DNA from: Paramecium tetraurelia
Lineage: Eukaryota; Ciliophora; Oligohymenophorea; Peniculida; Parameciidae
Length of the DNA: 64,000 nt
Reading direction: 5' to 3'
Assembly: GCF_000165425.1 (NCBI RefSeq)
Contig: NW_001799055.1
Span: 251,804 to 315,803 of the forward strand
Part shown: in pieces, positions 261 through 30,295 of the stretch
Layout of the letters: each line of letters begins with the position of its first letter
Position numbering within the stretch: position 1 is the first letter of the stretch
Position numbers and translations under genes: made by a program
Notes under the pieces: model-generated
The model's input: the letters and a program-made list of their open reading frames with translations, nothing else
The model's database searches: none
Told to the model about the DNA's origin: nothing

Positions 261-3200
261 TCAATTATCTTTTTCAACGAAGCTTCCCCTAATAGTAGTA
301 TTCTTGGCCTATCTGATACGATCAAAGAGAGTGAAATTGGTTTTAGTTCTTTTCATTTCTCTCATATCAAATTCCTGTCTTTTTTCGTTTTATTTTTCAT
401 AATAAATATTAATCCTATCTATTACAATTTCAAGGTTGAAATCAGGAAAATAGAATTTCGACGACTTGGCATTGTCCATATCCATTTCAAAGTGGACTCG
501 AACTATGTCTTGTATTCTCTTCTAAATTCCATCCATTGATTAGCCCACATGCACACTATTGCTATCTCCATTGTTATCATATTTGTTGTTGGAATCAACC
601 AGAGCTGAATTACTAGGTACTCCAGCCGTATACACACTAGAACTATAGGCTTCATTGTTTAGAACACTTTTTTCTGCTTTCTTATTTGATTTATTATCAA
701 CTTCCGATTGTTGGAAGAACTATAATAACTATGTGGTTTTTCTCCTTTTCTTCCTACGAGTGACTTCAATACTTTAAAATGTAAATTGAACAAATACTTG
801 CTGGTTTTCTTGGAAATGATACTATTTTCCCTTGCCTCTATTCTTTGTTTGATTTCAATTTCCTATGAATAAGAGGGAGGTGATTGATCGAAATTAGTCT
901 CACTTCCCTTACTAACTTGCTTTAATAAATGGTTCGCTTTATTATCTAGTTAATTTAAATATCAAATGAAAACCTAGATGCTAATTAGTGCCACTATCAA
1001 ATTCTAGCCATGATACTTTTCTGATTCCTATGTTTGGATTGTTATTGAGTTTGCTTTTGACTACCTTCAGTTTGCTATGTATATAATTTTGTGATCCTGC
1101 ATTGGCATTTTTAATTTTATCTTCCTCTTGAATCAAAGATTCATCCAAGAGATCAACTGGCCCATTGTTATTTTGATGATATTTCCCTTTCAATGATTGG
1201 AGAGTCTTGCCTCTATCTAAGCCTTGCAGTTTTATTCTATTAAGACTCCTTCTAAATTGACTGCCCTGATCCCAATCTAAGACGCTTTCCTAATAATCCA
1301 TAAGACAGATAGTTTTACATTTGTCATACTAGGCCGTTGACCATCTTTGAGAAAGATTGCTGTTTGATTTTAGGACTTTTGGTCAGCAGGTAACACAGTC
1401 TATATTGAAGGTTATGGAACTGGCTATTAAAGATTGTTTTCAAATTAGGACAATATTTTCTAATCTTTGAATAAGGAATTCTTCTTATTTCCAACCAACT
1501 TCTATAGTTCATCCTCCCTATCATTCAACTCAAAACCGAGATTAATCAGATAAGTATCATTTATTTCTCTTGAATATTTATCAATTGTACCTTTCCGGTA
1601 TTATATTGTTCAAGACTATATATCCCAATGCTGCTTCTTAGACATCAGGGAGATTATTTTTCCAATTCGATTTCGGCAATGTCCTATAAGGAAATACCAA
1701 TCGTTTATTAGTTTTCGTTTAAGCAAAAGAACTGGCGATTTTATTTTTGTTCGGTTACAGAAATACGAATGGGCATCTATAGAAATATTACAAATTAGAC
1801 TTACTAAATAAATCGATGAGTCCATCCGCATATTTCGCAGATCTAACCAAAACCCTTGTAATTGGAATTAAATAATAGATTGTCTTTAGCCAAACAGTAC
1901 TTCTCGAATTCCTCGTTGTTCTCTTATAGAATTAGATAGAATTGCTAATAACTAATTCAAAATGAATTCAAAATAATACTCCACAACTAATAATTGAGTA
2001 AATTTGGTTGCTCTGGCATTGTATTCATAGGGTGTTTGCGAAATGAATTCTCGTTCTCCAATGACAGCTCTATAAAATGATGTTGAGTATTATATATTTA
2101 CCCTTGAGTTATCTTCTTCAAGAAGGTTTCAGTGTAAAAGTGTTCATCCTCATCTAAAAGCATTACTTGACATTTATACTTTAATGGTCAGCAACATATT
2201 CCACCGCACCGGATAAAACAAACCAAAGTGCTTTTGGAGAATCGTTCCTCTAGAATAGTAATTATTCAGGATATAATTTGGTTTCTTTAACTACCTAACA
2301 CAACCTATGGATAGTTTCATCACTAAAGTTCTCTCTCAAGAAACGTGATTGAGTCAATGTTTTACTGTAAATATCAACCAGAACCTCTTCTCTTAAATGT
2401 TTTGTTAATTACTCAATGAATTATTCGGCATGTTGATCTTCCTCTTACTTAACCTTGAAGAAATACTCGAAATATTTTTTAACCTAAATTGATTCCAACT
2501 GACTACCTTTAATTGCAAATTGTAACTCAACCCTCTCTTTCTAATATGTTGATTGATTTCCCTAATTCTCTATTTGTAAATAGCCTTTTTATCAGATATT
2601 TATTTAAAGATGTTTCCAATGTTGGATAAACAATAACCAAAAACACCACAAATCAACAAAGTAACAACTATCACAAACACTCTCTCCACTGTTGTAACTG
2701 GAACAATATCACCATATCCTACGGTAACGGTTGTGATAACACTCCAATACAAAGAAATGATGTATCTATCAAACCAATAGTAATCCATAGCATTAGGATC
2801 ATATTTAGTCAACCAAGTTTATTCCTAATTATAATTTTCATATTCTATCACTGCAACCCAATGCCATGCACATCCACAAAAGTGTCCTGTGAGCAAGAGG
2901 AAGAATATCAATTTTAACAAATCCAAAAAGACTTACATGTTATCCTAATTCATAACTTTGAATATATTACTTCCAAATTTAATACTTCTTCGATACTTGT
3001 CATTAATGGAGTCAATCTCGTTAATCTCAATAACAATGTATATCTAACGAATGGGATATCCATGTTTGAAATTAAAAATGGAATTATGACTATTAAATCC
3101 CAGAAAAAGTTCCCCTTCACATAATGCTTCATTATCTACTTGCGATCTTCATGCATCAACCCTTTATCGTAATAGGCAGTATTGAAATTCAACAATATCT

Positions 3201-4313
3201 CAGCAACAAATACCCATGAGGGCAATAAATCAAAAATCCATTCGAAAACTCCTTATGATCTCACATCGAAACTAATGTAGATGGGTATGTAGAAGATGTT
3301 CACCACAATAAATAGCAGTAATACTATATCCCATATTATTTTGAATAAACTATCAGGTTTTATTACTTTCACATATTTTCCAATGAATGCATTTATTAAT
3401 TCTATCCAATTTAGAAGCTTAAGAGCTTTATTTTAAATTTAGTCAAAAATAATTAAACTGATACTAGGTTTTTATTTAATTAATCTATTTATTAACATAT
3501 ATTCGAAATTTGCACTGTTATCGCAAATTACCTCAAAAATTCTTTTAGTAATTAATCTGAACTTTATTCTTTCTGTCTTTGTTTTTAATTGTTGTATAAA
3601 TCGAGAAACCAATCTAATAATTATTAAGGCTTTTTAAGTCCAGACTTCATTTAAACTAAAATTTACTACGAAATCAATACCCTGTTTTCATCTCTTTGCT
3701 TCTGCCTCTCTATATCAATGATTGCTATTTTATAGTGTCTCTGTGAACTTATGCTCGCTTTGTTCTTTCGTTCTGCTCCTGCTCATCTTCTATCTATTAC
3801 ACAAACGTCTAATATTTTGCTATCTTAGCATCGGATTTCAATCCCAAATTGATTGTACCATTGATCTAAAGTGGAGATGATATCACAAAGTCATCTTATT
3901 CGAATTTTTATTAATTTTAAATAGTTTTGTTAGATTTAATTATTGTAGTCTTTCTTAATAGAGGTTATTAGGATTTCAAATTGCAACTTATTGAACTTAT
4001 AGAACCTTAAGGTTCGCTCCTTTTACCACTTTAATATCAAATCTAAATACCTTAAATTACTCATTAGACAGTCCTCCTCATTCACATCAGCCTTGTGGCC
4101 TAGATTTATGGCATTCTTGTGACTGTTATCAAATATGTCCCTCTTCATCCTCACAGCTTCTAGTTACTACAATTAAGAAAACTCAAGTGTTGGATCTAAT
4201 TGCTAACCTCCAATAGGACTAGCCTAATCGATATCAACCAATTGCCCAGATGAGATGTTATTGCTCTGAATTCCACTTTCCAAATCCTAGAATCCAGTGT
4301 CTCGATTAATCAT
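261..4313 (-). CDS. Ciliate K+ channel with C-terminal cyclic-nucleotide-binding domain (12 short introns)
   Basis: About 1244 residues after removal of 12 introns: 4029-4050, 3656-3680, 2945-2970, 2484-2506, 2154-2179, 2070-2101, 1952-1979, 1777-1804, 1569-1590, 1290-1318, 946-973 and 729-757 (22-32 nt). The spliced length is an exact multiple of three. A Q/S-rich cytoplasmic N-terminus is followed by S1-S6, with the K+ filter TVTVGYGDIVP at about 2706-2729. A C-linker comes next, then a cyclic-nucleotide-binding domain that keeps a phosphate-cassette-like pattern (GERE...ARAT). A C-x2-C-x3-H-x4-C motif (CEICGWTHRFIQC) follows, then a long hydrophilic Asn/Lys/Ser tail. S4 is weakly charged. 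By family knowledge it is a plasma- or ciliary-membrane K+ channel. Cyclic-nucleotide gating is inferred, not shown. The start is the first in-frame ATG (MINRDTGFQD). The stop TGA is at 261-263. Confidence 0.93.
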
Positions 4314-24562: not shown

Positions 24563-27528
24563 ATGCAATATCTTCAACCTGTTCTTTGTACAGAATAGCC
24601 AGCTGAAGAATCAATATTGCTTTAATTCAATTAATCATCTCAAGCAAAGGCAGCATTACAAAGTCCAATTTTGCAAAACGAAAATTACTTCATTAATTCG
24701 GCTAATAAGGACTTAATCAAACTTCATGACACGTAACCATGTTTATTATACTGTATTAGTATAGCAATAAAGGAAAAGGCAGGGTCATCGTTGATCCAAT
24801 ACTTTCATATAAGACATTTTATTCATTCAATTATGAAGAAGCGAAAATACTTGACAAAGTTTTCGAGAATTCATTTTAACCTAATAAATGATAGCGCTTC
24901 ATTTTTCAATCTAAAATTACTAAAATAAAATGCCTTGTCGTTGAAACCAATTTCTTAGACAATTTAATAAACAATGAGATAAAACACGAGAAGCCTAAAG
25001 AAAAAGAATGAGTGTTGGAATAAGATAGCTTAATCATGTGAAAAGTGCTTAAATATGATACCCTTAGTATATCCGGATGATAAATTAAAAGTGAGATGGG
25101 ATTGCATTTTAGTCTTGCCTCGTTTTTATTTTATGTGTATAATCCCGGTTGATTTGGCTTGGACTAAAGAGCAAGTATTGTTTGGCTATGCTTTCATTCC
25201 AACTCTGATATCTTTAGGACTAATTATCATAGATTTCTTCTTTGGTTTTGCCTGTAGTTATTATGAAGATGGACAAGTAATGGTAGATAGAAAAAAAGTG
25301 TTCTTGCATAATCTCACAAAATCATATGGAATTGAATTAGCATCAACTGTGGTTTTGATTATCTTCTTAATCTTCCAGGTTGGCTATGATTAATAGGTCG
25401 ATATCTCAAAAGACATATACTACTTACTATTATTATTTTCCTTAGTGTAGTACAGAAACATAATGAAGATACGAGAACAATTGGAGGAAGCTTTAAATCT
25501 TTCAGAATATGGCAGTTCCATTGTAGAGCTCGTCAAATTGTTGTGTTTGGTCTGTTACGTTATTCATATTTTTGGCTGTTTATGGTTTTGGGTATTTTTT
25601 ATTGGTCATAACAAAAGGTTGGATATTACGGTTCGACATACTTAAACGAGGGTTGGCTGGTTGGATAAGAAGTTGTAACGGCAAATTTTGGTACCCAATA
25701 CTTAAGAGCCATTTACTTTTCTACCGTTACTATGTTCACAGTTGGATACGGAGATATAACTCCAAAGACTGAACCTGAATACATACTGGCAATTATCTTT
25801 ATGATGGTCAGTAGCATTCAATTATCATACAGTGTGAGCACTGTGGGGGCTGTTCTTGAGAAAATCACATCCTTTAAGGAGATTAAATAAAAAAAACTTA
25901 GTATTATAAATAATTTCATGGAGAAAAAATAAATAAACTCCAAACTGTAATTTTAAGTAAGACAATATTTGAACTATTATTGGAACAAGCAATAAGACGA
26001 AGAGACTTAGGCTGAATAAACAATCATAGATTAATTGAGTCAAACTCTAAAAGAAAAATTAACCTATGAAGCCAATTCTAGGATTCTAAATTAATGTCGA
26101 TTTATCAAAGATAATTTTTCGGATAAATTCTAAAAGAAATTAGTTGAAAAGATAAGTTCTCAGTATTTACAGCCAGAAAACATTATAGAATTTTAGAAGT
26201 TTTTCAAAAGAATCAAAAAAATTGAGAAAACTGAATTTTAATGTTTATGCTTCATCGAGATGGGAAAAGTTGAATCATTTATTGAAGATCCCAACACCTA
26301 AAATGTTATTGCTTCAAATATCACTAATTATTTATAAGGAAAATGCTTCAATGAAATATCATTTCTTACTGGATAAGATTTTAAGGAAAAATTCAAAACT
26401 GTAGAATTTACCAAATTACTTATTCTATCAAGAAGAGATTTTCTAGCCACAATGAAAGATTTCCCTCAAGACTTTGAAAAATATAAAGAACTTGTAGACG
26501 ATTTTAACATAAACAAAGAAATGTCGATGTTAAAAATTTAATGTCAATCATGTGATTCATACAAACATTTAACTGTTGATTGTCCAATTGTCCATTTTGT
26601 TCCAGAAAGAGAGGTTATTATTAAAAGATCTGCTTATTCATAATTCTAATAAAGAAGGCACATAAAGAGATCCAGAACCAGAACCAAACCAACTATCAAG
26701 ATTCAAAGATTAGTGGCCATGCAAGCGAACAAAATGTACAATTAAGTTACCATCGATCCAACCTATTGCAATATCTATGAAATTCCAGATGAGCAAATAT
26801 TTACAGGGGCTGAAGAACCATAACTGTTAAATCAAAATCCTTAACATGTTTAGATACAAATAATAGGTTCTTAAGCCAATAGCTTCGTTTAAAATTCTAT
26901 ATCCGTTCTACCCCAATAACCAGAATCGCCTAAGCAAAAGAAAGGCTAAAAGACCTTTAATCATCTTAGTGCAAGAGCAATTAGACATAAAAGTAATCCC
27001 AAAAAACTATTTCGCTTGGGATTTAATGTGGTATCAGGTGCAAGGTTTTGGTCTAAAGTAACGAAGATCAGGAAAAATAGTTCATTATCATTAGAGAATA
27101 TGAATAAGGAATTGCAATTAAGAAGGACATTGATAAATGACTAAATGGATTTAGTACCCAAATCCATTTTGGATGATATGTTCTTTGCAGAATAACTGTT
27201 TTAATAACTTCTGACGCAGTAGCAAGTTGAAGATTAATTCGATTAAGTAAGAGAATGCAAACGGTACAAACCTTAAGATAACCTAAACTAACAACTCTGT
27301 AAATAGGATTTGATAAATGAAAAGTGTTCACCTAATGAATTGGCTTTCTTCCAAAAGATTAGAGAAAAATTGTCATAGTTTATGTGTTTCCCGCATCAGT
27401 ATATTTTGAGATACAAATATCCCTTATCTATATCATCTAAAATTGGGTTAGTGGTAGATGTCAGGAAAATTAAAAGGTAAAGCAAAAGTAAATCCAAGAT
27501 TGGGAAGTCTATGACGGGAAAGAGATGA
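24563..27528 (+). CDS. Ciliate K+ channel with degenerate CNBD and zinc knuckle, tandem copy A
   Basis: 971 residues; introns 24741-24764 (24 nt) and 25592-25617 (26 nt); the spliced length is a multiple of three. Six TM helices: S1 begins near KVRWDCILVLPRFYF, and S5 ends FGCLWFWV just before intron 2. The pore reads TVTMFTVGYGDITP (about 25722-25763). S6 is followed by a C-linker (QVRQYLNYYW). The CNBD-like fold reads NEISFLTGQDF...TVEFTKLLIL and lacks the Gly-Glu and Arg that bind cyclic nucleotide phosphate, so ligand binding is unlikely. It is followed directly by CQSCDSYKHLTVDCP, a perfect C-x2-C-x4-H-x4-C zinc-knuckle pattern, and then about 300 hydrophilic residues. S4 has few basic residues (QYRNIMKIREQLEEAL). 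Paralogue of the next gene. Confidence 0.93.
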
Positions 27529-27608
27529 TATATTATAAAATTAAAATAACATCAATGTGTATATTTTAAAAAAGGAAATATATTATATATTATAAATATA
27601 TTAAAATT

Positions 27609-30295
27609 ATGAAACAAAGATTGGCACTCCCTTTTGCTTTTGAAGCTAAATTGCTATCAGAACAAAATGAGTCTAATTTGCTTAGTAGTAAAATTCAAAA
27701 TAGCAAATTAATGTAGTATCGATCTGCTCAGTTTTAAGCTGATTTTTGGTGTTTACCTACTAATGATAAAAAATAATTAAACTACGAAAAGAAAAACGAT
27801 TTCATAAGGAGGTTTATTGATAATATGCTTGATCACATTCGAAAAGTCAAGAAATTAACCAACTTTCACATATCACTAATTGGCGACTAAGGAGCCTCTG
27901 AAGAGGTTTTTGTAAAAAGGAAATCTTCTACGCTTCATCATTTAAATTAGTAACAATTGAAGTTTTTTTAAAATGTTAAAAAATCCATAATTATTTAATT
28001 AGAAAAGTTACCACTTATACACCCTGGTTAATACATTAAAGTGATTTGGGATATTATTGCTGTGACTGCTCGTTTATACTTTTTATATATAATCCCTATA
28101 GACTTGGCATGGGTTAATCAACAATTTATATTCCATGACTTGAGCTACATTTCAATAACATTTTTACTTATATTGGTTTTTGATTTGCTATTGAGTTTGA
28201 ATACTATATATTTTTAAAACGGAGAGGCAGTGGAATCTAGAGTTCATATAATAAAAAATAGCTTGTATAATACTTACGGATTGCAATGGCTCTCAGTGTT
28301 TTAATTATTAATTTATTTCGTTATTTCAGCTTTTACGGATATTTCGTTGGATATTTCCAATAATATATTTAATATAGGTTTACTTATATTTTTAGTTCAC
28401 CATAAGACAATTATCAACTATGCCACTAATTACGAAGAAGGTTTGAATTTGTCAAAGCAAACCTCAACGATATTAGCCTTACTAAAATTGATAGCATTTC
28501 TATTCTATGTGATTCATTTATTTTCCTGTTTTTGGTTTTGGGTAATCCTATTCACTAATGATTTTAGGTTGGTAGATATAGCATAGATAATTATGAAGGG
28601 AAGAGTTGGCTAGTCTCTACTAACATGCTTGAATAGACTTTTAATACTCAATATCTTCAAGCTTTCTATTATACCGCTGTTACGATGTTTACAGTTGGTT
28701 ATGGAGATGTAACGCCATAGTCCAATATTGAAAAAATAGTTTCAGTTATTTTAATTATGATATCAAGCATCCAATTACCATATAGCATTAACACTGTTGG
28801 TACAATTATAACAGAAATTTCTGCGTTTTCAGAAGAAAAAAAAAGAAAATTAAGAATCATTAACTCATATATGAATAAAACTTCCTTGTCCTCTGGTCTA
28901 TAAGTTTAAGTAAGGAAATATCTTTCTTATTATTGGGAAAATAAAGTCGTTTCTTAATCTGAGGAGGAAAAAGAAATTATAGATTCCTTATCTGAATTCC
29001 TAAGACAATAATTGATTAATGAAGCTCATCAAAATATTTTTGACTAATGTACTTTGTTTCGGATACCTTTTACTGAATAATTCAAAAAGCAATTAATCAA
29101 AGAGGTTGAAGAGGTTCTCTTATCTCCAGAATAGGATTTGAAATAATCCAACGATATCTTATTGTATTATATAGAGGAAGGCTCTGTATAAATATGTTTA
29201 TAATAAGGAAGAAAAATAAACCTAGGGATAGTTAACAAAGGAGCTTCTATTGGAATGAAAAATTTTATTACAGGCACTGAGTCTCTTGAAACTTTGAAGA
29301 GTGTTGGATTCACAAAAGCTATGTTACTCAAAAGAAGGTGCTTTTTAAAGATATTGCAAGATCATCCTGAAGACTATGAATTATTTTGTTCCATTAGAGA
29401 CAAATTAATATTTCAAAAGGATGATCAATATTTTAATGTGAAATGCTTTTCTTGTGGAAAAGAATCTCACAAATTAATTGAATGTCCTTTGATTAAATTT
29501 ATACCAGATAAAGAATTCATAATTAAACAATATTTATATCCTAAAGCTTAAGAAAGAGTAGAATTTGCAAGAACCAGAAGGAAGGTTTAAAGTTTAAATC
29601 AAAATAGAAAAAAGTTAGAATAGTGCGCACTATTAATTTAGAAGGACAATCCCTAATTATTTTAATTATATAGATTCGATAATATTTTGAATATAGATGA
29701 AGAATAGTTAAAGCAATACATAAAAAGGTCTAATACAATCCAAAATATAAATACTCATAAACCAAAAATTAAAAAGAAAATTATCTCTGCTTTTGAATAA
29801 AATCAAGATCCGATAAAGAAAAAATTTAGATAATTAGTAAATAAATTAATTTCGATAAATAAAATATACCCTTATTTTTTAATATAAACGTATGTAGAAT
29901 TTGAAAAAATGATTGAATAAAGATCTATTTCATTAACTCTATAGATTTTGGAATAAAGATTAAAAAATATCCATTAATTAGATAATAAACGATTTGATAT
30001 CTACCTAAGTGATATCAACTTTATCATCTCCAAGTTATCCAATAAAACATATATAGACGATTAAGAATTTGAAAGTCCTCAAAGTTATAAATATTATTTT
30101 AGGAAAGATAATTTTTCAATTGTCAAATAGAAGAATTTTTTATAAAATCTAAATGTTTTGAAAAAATTTATACATTATGTTCAATACCCAGGGGATTTAA
30201 TTTAGAGATTCAATTTAACTCAAATCGGAATGTTGTTAGTGGTAAATAAGAGAAGACAAAACTTTTGTCTATCAGCAGTTTAGCCAATTAAGTGA
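27609..30295 (+). CDS. Ciliate K+ channel with degenerate CNBD and zinc knuckle, tandem copy B
   Basis: 886 residues; one 26-nt intron (28542-28567) at exactly the site of intron 2 in copy A, after the shared FWFW. The spliced length is a multiple of three. TM layout is as in copy A (YFLYIIPIDLAWVNQQF in S1). The pore is TAVTMFTVGYGDVTP. S4 is even poorer in charge (FLVHHKTIINYATNYEEG), so voltage sensing is doubtful. The CNBD-like region (GIVNKGASIGMKNFI) lacks the cyclic-nucleotide cassette. It is followed by CFSCGKESHKLIECP, again C-x2-C-x4-H-x4-C. The hydrophilic tail is shorter and different from copy A. It starts 80 bp after the stop of copy A, so the pair is a local tandem duplication that has diverged. 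Confidence 0.93.

Follow-up and report, generated by a model that had tools for sequence, protein, structure and literature searches.

K+ channels with a cyclic nucleotide-binding domain (CNBD), namely SthK, the LliK type, CNG, HCN, KCNH and the plant channels AKT1/SKOR, are the closest described relatives of the channels reported here. Their pore, C-linker and CNBD align to the profile of our family, with E values of 2.7e-42 for SthK, 5.4e-32 for HCN1, about 4e-29 for KCNH2 and about 1e-26 for AKT1. The C-helix is the moving part of CNBDs, and in KCNH-type domains the residues that bind the phosphate of a cyclic nucleotide (cNMP) are not needed for membership of the channel class. K+ channels with a structural zinc in their cytosolic region are known: in the T1 domain of Kv2-Kv4, Cys/His ligands form an inter-subunit Zn2+ site involved in tetramer assembly. 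That site differs from the motif described below in being N-terminal, in having its ligands distributed over two subunits and in not being a knuckle, and a sequence relation between the two is not expected.

CCHC zinc knuckles (Pfam zf-CCHC) of the spacing C-x2-C-x4-H-x4-C are found in retroviral nucleocapsid proteins and in LIN28. The nucleic-acid-binding type has Gly before the His and an aromatic residue after Cys1 (position 2), and both matter for base stacking. The cysteines of such knuckles can be oxidised. No report of a channel combined with a zinc knuckle was found in a search of part of the open-access literature. Here, CCHC motifs directly following the CNBD of K+ channels were analysed in the window, i.e. 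the whole stretch of 64,000 nucleotides of Paramecium tetraurelia DNA, and in the channel family of the same genome.

K+ channel genes of the window and their CCHC motif

Two tandem channel genes, K1 and K2, lie on the forward strand. K1 extends from 24563 to 27528, with the first-exon frame beginning at the ATG at 24563, a short intron inferred at about 25570-25640 and an open frame from pore to stop at 25390-27528. K2 occupies 27609 to 30295; its start at the ATG at 27609 is approximate, and the open frame 28562-30295 covers pore to stop. A third gene, K3, is on the minus strand at 261-4313; these outer coordinates are taken from the preliminary description, and the pore and knuckle were confirmed here. 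All three carry the K+ filter T-V/I-G-Y-G-D, as TVGYGD at 25738 in K1, at 28691 in K2 and at 2725 on the minus strand in K3. Pfam recognises Ion_trans_2 in K1 (2.7e-12) and K2 (3.5e-14). The C-linker and CNBD fold was identified by the alignment of the family profile with SthK, HCN and KCNH and, in K1 and K2, by Pfam cNMP_binding, which is over the cut-off in K2 (1.2e-6) and just under it in K1 (6.4e-6; 26.5 against 27.5 bits).

A six-frame scan of the window with translation table 6 and the pattern C-x2-C-x3..5-H-x3..5-C returned three matches. Two of these are the knuckles of K1 (CQSCDSYKHLTVDC, 26542-26583, plus strand) and K2 (CFSCGKESHKLIEC, 29444-29485, plus strand). Each has the exact spacing C-x2-C-x4-H-x4-C followed by Pro, as had been noted from the sequence, and the placement directly after the CNBD C-helix is likewise correct. 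The third match, a C-x2-C-x3-H-x3-C at 25544-25579, precedes the K1 pore and belongs to a stretch of hydrophobic residues. The knuckle of K3 (CEICGWTHRFIQC followed by P, 1773-1839, minus strand) was missed by the scan because an intron splits the motif. Removal of this 28-nt intron (GTAAGTCTAATTTGTAATATTTCTATAG, 1804-1777, GTAAGT...TATAG) yields CEICGWTHRFIQCPFVFLQP, which reads C-x2-C-x3-H-x4-C-P, and the earlier reading of K3 as a close variant with x3 for x4 therefore holds after splicing. An alternative GT-AG intron of 24 nt would drop Cys4. A candidate intron is present at exactly the K3 position in five paralogues (L183, L184, L186, L200 and L203), and its splicing regains Cys4-Pro in all five; the introns inside the motif measure 22-36 nt, and the removal of each restores Cys4-Pro.

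Distribution and conservation of the knuckle

The knuckle had been described from two or three channels. Its presence there is confirmed, but it is not confined to them: the knuckle module is a trait of a large K+ channel family in Paramecium tetraurelia. When the K2 module (29378-29599, plus strand) was used as query, at least 150 tails were retrieved from the same genome, including K2 itself and K1, whose C-helix, knuckle and conserved basic segment (26476-26700, plus strand) form part of alignment A2. In 173 distinct same-genome tails, the ligands are kept as Cys1 in 173/173, Cys2 in 173/173, His in 172/173 and Cys4 in 169 of the 169 aligned. Variability of the ligands had been set beforehand as evidence against function, and the opposite was found. 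The exact C-x2-C-x4-H-x4-C spacing is seen in 148 of the 173; in 18 others a single uninterrupted frame has x3 between Cys2 and His, the spacing also present in K3. Among the exceptions, Asp replaces the His in paralogue L167, and L156 has x2, not x4, ahead of the last Cys. With near-invariance in 173 tails set against three pattern matches in the window, a chance occurrence is ruled out, because the motif is conserved across the family.

The ligands stand out from variable surroundings. The median pairwise identity at non-ligand tail columns is 23% (148 tails). Each of the four ligands is encoded by both of its synonymous codons (Cys TGT/TGC 119/47, 107/59 and 122/44; His CAT/CAC 139/27), and constraint therefore acts on the protein. 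In alignment A3 (69 sequences) the four ligands are the sole invariant columns within the tail region common to all; columns upstream of the tail could not be invariant in it, because 33 of the 69 rows are mostly tail fragments. The remaining 36 long rows span C-linker to tail and contain 15 invariant positions, of which four are the ligands and 11 lie elsewhere in the C-linker, CNBD and tail. Other tail positions are also well kept (R60 in 152/161, Q58 in 126/162, P43 in 115/171), and a conserved signature, P-D-K-E and Q-x-R, follows the knuckle; such conservation outside the ligands is what a folded module would predict. Within the young K2 clade, the whole module is 69-86% conserved, lower than the C-linker and CNBD (82-95%). 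The 84-residue knuckle regions of K1 and K2 match with a BLASTP E value of 1.5e-13, while their downstream tails have no significant similarity (best E 4.9). Thus the proposed retention of the motif in an otherwise diverging tail is borne out.

Channels were also selected by the pore only, blind to the tail. This gave 150 channels among the matches listed; tails were read in 111 of them, and 109 of these 111 have the knuckle. The other two are the divergent channels L198 and L199, in which no such tail occurs within the 301 bases examined. Outside the 111, C194 and C217 show a zf-CCHC match at the expected place, and 18 more pore-selected channels (17 + 1) are candidates for the knuckle, in that a homologous tail match covers the knuckle positions of the query. 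Conversely, a K+ filter (TVGYGD, TIGYGD or SVGYGD) lies 744-821 nt upstream of 27 of the 30 best knuckle matches. No K+ filter is seen in the eight loci of the genome that score best with the Pfam CNBD model (L001-L008), and the tail model matched none of them convincingly (best E 0.034). Among 160 prokaryotic and viral loci, nine of them spanning the CNBD, there was no tail-model match (none below E 0.59); those nine relatives (L204-L212, prokaryotic) end a few dozen residues past the C-helix without the motif. These two sets rule out the knuckle as a general property of CNBDs.

Comparison with solved chains and known zinc knuckles

Among the 60 PDB chains in the matches listed (400 matched), the knuckle is present in one, the Tetrahymena-derived chain C of 7w5z, 'Cyclic nucleotide-binding domain protein'. 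Its alignment covers profile positions 7-337 of 339 (E 3.5e-87), whereas the alignments of the other 59 chains stop at position 280 or before, short of the knuckle. By sequence comparison, this chain shares the GYGD pore, C-linker, CNBD and knuckle (CYNCKKIGHISSSCP; segment CYNCKKIGHISSSC, around residues 796-863), followed by a Q-x-R segment. It differs from the Paramecium channels in that its entry places it in a structure of mitochondrial complex IV; its channel-like part may be built in that model or may stem from a fused gene model. The 7w5z entry is used as a model of the Tetrahymena complex IV dimer.

After 7w5z chain C, the solved sequences nearest to the channel knuckle come from retroviral nucleocapsids (best E 1e-4), whose knuckles have the spacing of the 148 exact tails. 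The channel knuckle is unlike zf-CCHC in being a single copy on a membrane channel in which Gly before the His is rare. Scores of K1 (zf-CCHC_3, 14.1 against 27 bits) and K2 (zf-CCHC, 13.8 against 20.8 bits) are below the Pfam gathering scores, and a zf-CCHC match at E <= 1 was obtained for just 12 of 69 members. In a genome scan, six channel loci are over the zf-CCHC cut-off (C191, C207, C197, C194, C16 and C217).

Possible roles of the knuckle

The motif most likely binds metal, judging from its ligand pattern and its likeness to known zinc knuckles. Probably, it is a genuine zinc knuckle with a structural role, giving order to a tail module that would serve in assembly or docking. Cys1, Cys2, His and Cys4 would bind one Zn2+, on which a segment of about 14 residues would fold; the knuckle would then hold the CNBD C-helix in place at its end and present a rigid face on which the channel could assemble or a partner could dock. 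In a wider and more speculative reading, which we consider doubtful, ciliates evolved a channel architecture of their own in which a module stabilised by zinc and fused to the C-helix of the CNBD, replacing or standing beside cNMP binding, couples the cytosolic ring to the pore. If true, a large repertoire of ciliate K+ channels would be gated or assembled via a metal- or thiol-sensitive site. The family has well over a hundred members, and the four residues presumed to bind metal equal the best-kept C-linker and CNBD positions in invariance. The knuckle also provides a simple sequence signature for this class of ciliate K+ channel, and a route to asking whether zinc or thiol state affects ciliate excitability.

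The knuckle is not a cyclic-nucleotide sensor. The cNMP phosphate-binding residues (GE...R-x-A-T/S) were looked for in K1 and K2 and are absent. By eye, the canonical cassette (FGE..R-x-A-T/S) is present in four of the 36 long sequences (L035, L037, L038 and L064), all of which also carry the knuckle; occurrence of the knuckle in sequences with and without the cassette rules out a tie to cNMP binding. Gating of these channels by cNMP should not be assumed. The presumed ligands are much better kept than the cassette, and what took over from cyclic-nucleotide gating in these channels is now a testable question. Since 32 of the 36, judged by eye, lack the cassette, another input would be plausible, and the position of the knuckle right on the C-helix and its oxidisable cysteines would suit a metal- or redox-sensing gate. 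Such a gate would read cytosolic Zn2+ or thiol oxidation, with loss of zinc unfolding the knuckle, shifting the C-helix and opening or closing the pore. However, that the ligands stay invariant in 173 tails whose neighbouring sequence differs widely suits a structural site at least equally, and a sensing gate appears rather unlikely.

Lower still is the probability that the module is recognised by an adaptor of the cilia or cortex in trafficking or partner docking, and is not a part of channel assembly. Its family-wide presence in a ciliate that has to sort many channels and the conserved P-D-K-E and Q-x-R signature are consistent with this; paralogues with different destinations would be expected to vary more in this surface than is seen.

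The knuckle is probably not a nucleic-acid binder. Binding of RNA by the tail, be it the channel's own transcript or a localised mRNA, in the manner of the nucleocapsid or LIN28 knuckles, would be in line with the shared spacing, the nucleocapsid matches among solved sequences and the basic residues downstream of the knuckle. The family does not have the features of the nucleic-acid-binding type: an aromatic residue is at position 2 in just 98 of 166 tails and Gly directly precedes the His in 10 of 166, so the base-stacking positions are not conserved family-wide. With a single knuckle on a membrane channel, RNA binding seems very improbable. Of the interpretation given in the preliminary description, the reality of the motif, its place after the CNBD and the protein-level constraint stand, while nucleic-acid binding is poorly supported. 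Recent shared ancestry alone, with duplications too young for the motif to change, would fit a large family with some close copies (the three nearest to K2 are 75-86% identical), but it is scarcely credible: it is contradicted by the 23% median identity outside the ligands, the synonymous variation in the ligand codons and the same motif in the Tetrahymena-derived chain.

The CCHC motif in the channel genes of the window

The window has a GC content of about 27% and is read with the ciliate code (TAA and TAG as Gln); introns are very short, 22-36 nt in the cases read. These features agree with a ciliate of the Paramecium type. A pattern scan located the CCHC pattern C-x2-C-x4-H-x4-C, followed by Pro, in the K+ channel genes K1 (26542-26583) and K2 (29444-29485), both on the plus strand, as the preliminary description had claimed. 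Across 75 aligned columns surrounding the motif K1 and K2 share 27% identity, the four ligands (Cys1, Cys2, His, Cys4) and the Pro being identical. In the third channel gene, K3 (261-4313, minus strand), the frame reads CEICGWTHRFIQ and then enters an intron. Removal of these 28 nt (GTAAGT...TATAG, 1804-1777) gives ...RFIQCPFVFLQP, so the x3 variant attributed to K3 is correct. K3 shares this intron position, offset 35 from Cys1 within the knuckle, with candidate introns of five paralogues (L183, 22 nt; L184, 36 nt; L186, 23 nt; L200, 22 nt; L203, 22 nt), whose splicing brings back the fourth Cys and the Pro in each of the five.

By eye, few or no basic residues are present at the expected S4 of K1 (24563-25570) and K2 (27609-28560), and thus their voltage sensor looks degenerate. 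The expected segments are ...QYRNIMKIREQ... in K1, ...NIGLLIFLVHHKTIINYATNY... in K2 and ...LLLRLTRLTP... in K3. Just left of the window lies L020 (C101:248472-252467, minus strand), a further channel with the knuckle, CLSCQSPSHSIINCP; together with K1, K2 and K3 it makes this region a local channel cluster. K2-like and K3-like tails also occur together on contigs C17, C199 and C206.

Conservation of the four ligands across the family

The 74-aa K2 tail (the knuckle module, 29378-29599) was used to search the 69-Mb assembly of 231 contigs. At least 150 matches were obtained at E ≤0.012, these being the best 150 of 164 candidates. DNA was read for all 150 (109 as short stretches) and for 26 further channels. 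A six-frame profile search of it yielded 195 rows, 173 of them distinct, which represent every locus from L009 to L203 save L198, L199 and the intron case L200. The proposed check of ligand conservation, run on this genome's family, found Cys1 and Cys2 in 173/173 distinct tails, His in 172/173 and Cys4 in all 169 rows reaching it. Cys2-His spacing in one uninterrupted frame was x4 in 148 of the 173 and x3 in 18. The seven failing the simple pattern are five intron-cut rows (K3, L183, L184, L186, L203), L156 (x2 before Cys4) and L167. L167 (C20:194680-195010; His to Asp, CYYCKIQGDYIVEC) is the sole tail found with a replaced ligand, its frame being otherwise open. Pro directly follows Cys4 in 118 rows of the 173-tail set. 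Both synonymous codons are used at every ligand among the 166 rows whose motif is uninterrupted (TGT/TGC 119/47, 107/59 and 122/44 for the three Cys; CAT/CAC 139/27 for His), and thus the constraint on the four ligands acts at the protein level.

Since these tails were found through likeness to a knuckle, channels were also chosen by pore and C-linker alone. The query (window 28565-29134), which holds neither CNBD end nor knuckle, gave 152 matches, 150 of them listed. A tail match lay ≤1500 nt downstream in 85 of the 150 listed; all 85 carry the four residues, L156 alone with altered spacing. From the remaining 65, 26 were read in two batches: the knuckle was present in 20/20 of the first (17 in an uninterrupted frame, three after splicing) and 4/6 of the second (two spliced), giving 109 of 111 pore-selected channels examined from the 150 listed. 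No knuckle tail was found in the 301 bases read for each of L198 (C208:214400-214700) and L199 (C187:236790-237090); these divergent CNBD channels are among the weakest pore matches and perhaps represent a second channel class in this genome. Among the other 39 listed pore matches, two (C194, C217) have a zf-CCHC match at the expected place and 18 more a homologous tail match covering the query's knuckle positions. Conversely, a K+ filter lies 744-821 nt upstream in 27 of the best 30 knuckle matches. Of the other three, L044 is masked at the expected filter place, and no GYG filter was found in the knuckle-bearing family genes L050 (C101:544934-548122) and L051 (C36:588020-591208), the latter reading HWASVYLTSSGLSN in that region. 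The eight loci that score highest for the Pfam CNBD model in this genome (L001-L008) gave no convincing match to the tail model (best E 0.034) and lack the K+ filter.

Outside the ligands the tails vary widely, with a median pairwise identity of 23% (5-95%: 14-37%) in 148 nearly complete tails. In an alignment of 69 family sequences (A3) the ligands are the only invariant columns, which is valid for the tail alone because 33 rows are mostly tail fragments. From C-linker to tail, 36 long rows have 15 invariant positions, the four ligands and R33, Y35, L58, L62, L66, P104, G122, D186, E188, K237 and R247 (K2 segment). The knuckle was said to be retained while the rest of the tail diverges, and this holds for K1 and K2: the 84-residue knuckle region matches at a BLASTP E of 1.5e-13, whereas the 264 (K1) and 219 (K2) residues beyond the module are unconserved (best E 4.9). 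Between K2 and its three nearest copies, identity is 61-85% after the module, 69-86% in it, 82-95% in C-linker and CNBD and 86-93% in the 14-residue ligand span; thus the module as a whole is not exceptional within this young clade.

Position of the module and its possible role

Profile alignment places the knuckle directly after the CNBD C-helix, in agreement with the place just behind the CNBD-like fold given in the preliminary description. The consensus of the module is ExFCxIKDxLLFN (C-helix), about 8-10 residues, then CxSCxxxxHxxxxCPxLHYxPDKExxIKKxxYxxxQxR. Among the best-kept non-ligand positions are R60 (152/161), Q58 (126/162), D8 (125/160), P37 (119/169), P43 (115/171) and K50 (110/168); the first and last profile columns appear invariant merely since rows stop there.

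From the pattern of the four ligands and the likeness to known zinc knuckles, the motif very probably binds zinc. It probably serves as a structural element that turns the CNBD end into a rigid assembly or docking module: bound zinc would stiffen that end, and the rigid end would then act in assembly or docking. The strongest rival, a metal- or redox-sensing gate, is considered unlikely. The canonical phosphate cassette (FGE...R-x-A-T/S, by eye) is present in only four of the 36 long sequences (L035, L037, L038, L064) and absent from K1 and K2, while the knuckle occurs in 36/36, so it is not tied to nucleotide binding.

Among solved sequences, the K2 module is closest to 7w5z_C (chain C of PDB 7W5Z; E 4.4e-8); zinc knuckles of retroviral nucleocapsids follow (best E 1e-4). 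A zf-CCHC scan of the genome gave 23 places above cut-off, six in channels of the family (C191, C207, C197, C194, C16, C217), with K1 and K2 under it; at E ≤1, 12 of the 69 A3 members match (best 2.4e-5). Gly before His and an aromatic residue after Cys1 are typical of nucleic-acid-binding knuckles; with 10/166 and 98/166 tails respectively, neither characterises the family, and RNA binding by the channel knuckle is therefore not favoured.

Relatives beyond this genome

Tail-model matches below E 0.59 were absent from the forward frames of 160 loci, the best 80 of 254 prokaryotic and the best 80 of 110 viral relatives. Most of these match the pore alone, and nine prokaryotic loci spanning the CNBD (L204-L212) stop shortly past the C-helix. 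The available text of the open-access literature searched yielded no report of a zinc knuckle, zinc finger or CCHC motif on K+ or CNBD channels; a prior mention is possible. CNBD-containing channels are described as abundant in Paramecium in an excerpt of PMC3283738, and the words zinc, Paramecium and Tetrahymena are absent from the accessible part of a survey of eukaryotic CNBD channels (PMC7576140).

Eukaryotic comparison was made with PDB sequences. Among the best 60 of 400 matched chains, 7w5z_C alone aligns through the knuckle, to position 337 of the family profile, whereas the alignment of SthK stops at position 266, read as just before the C-helix. PMC10227065 and PMC10060162 use 7W5Z to represent the complex IV dimer of Tetrahymena thermophila, which makes it very probable that a second ciliate genus carries the motif. 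The chain, 1471 residues long and named 'cyclic nucleotide-binding domain protein', combines pore, C-linker, CNBD and knuckle; its presence in a mitochondrial complex IV entry possibly reflects a fused gene model.
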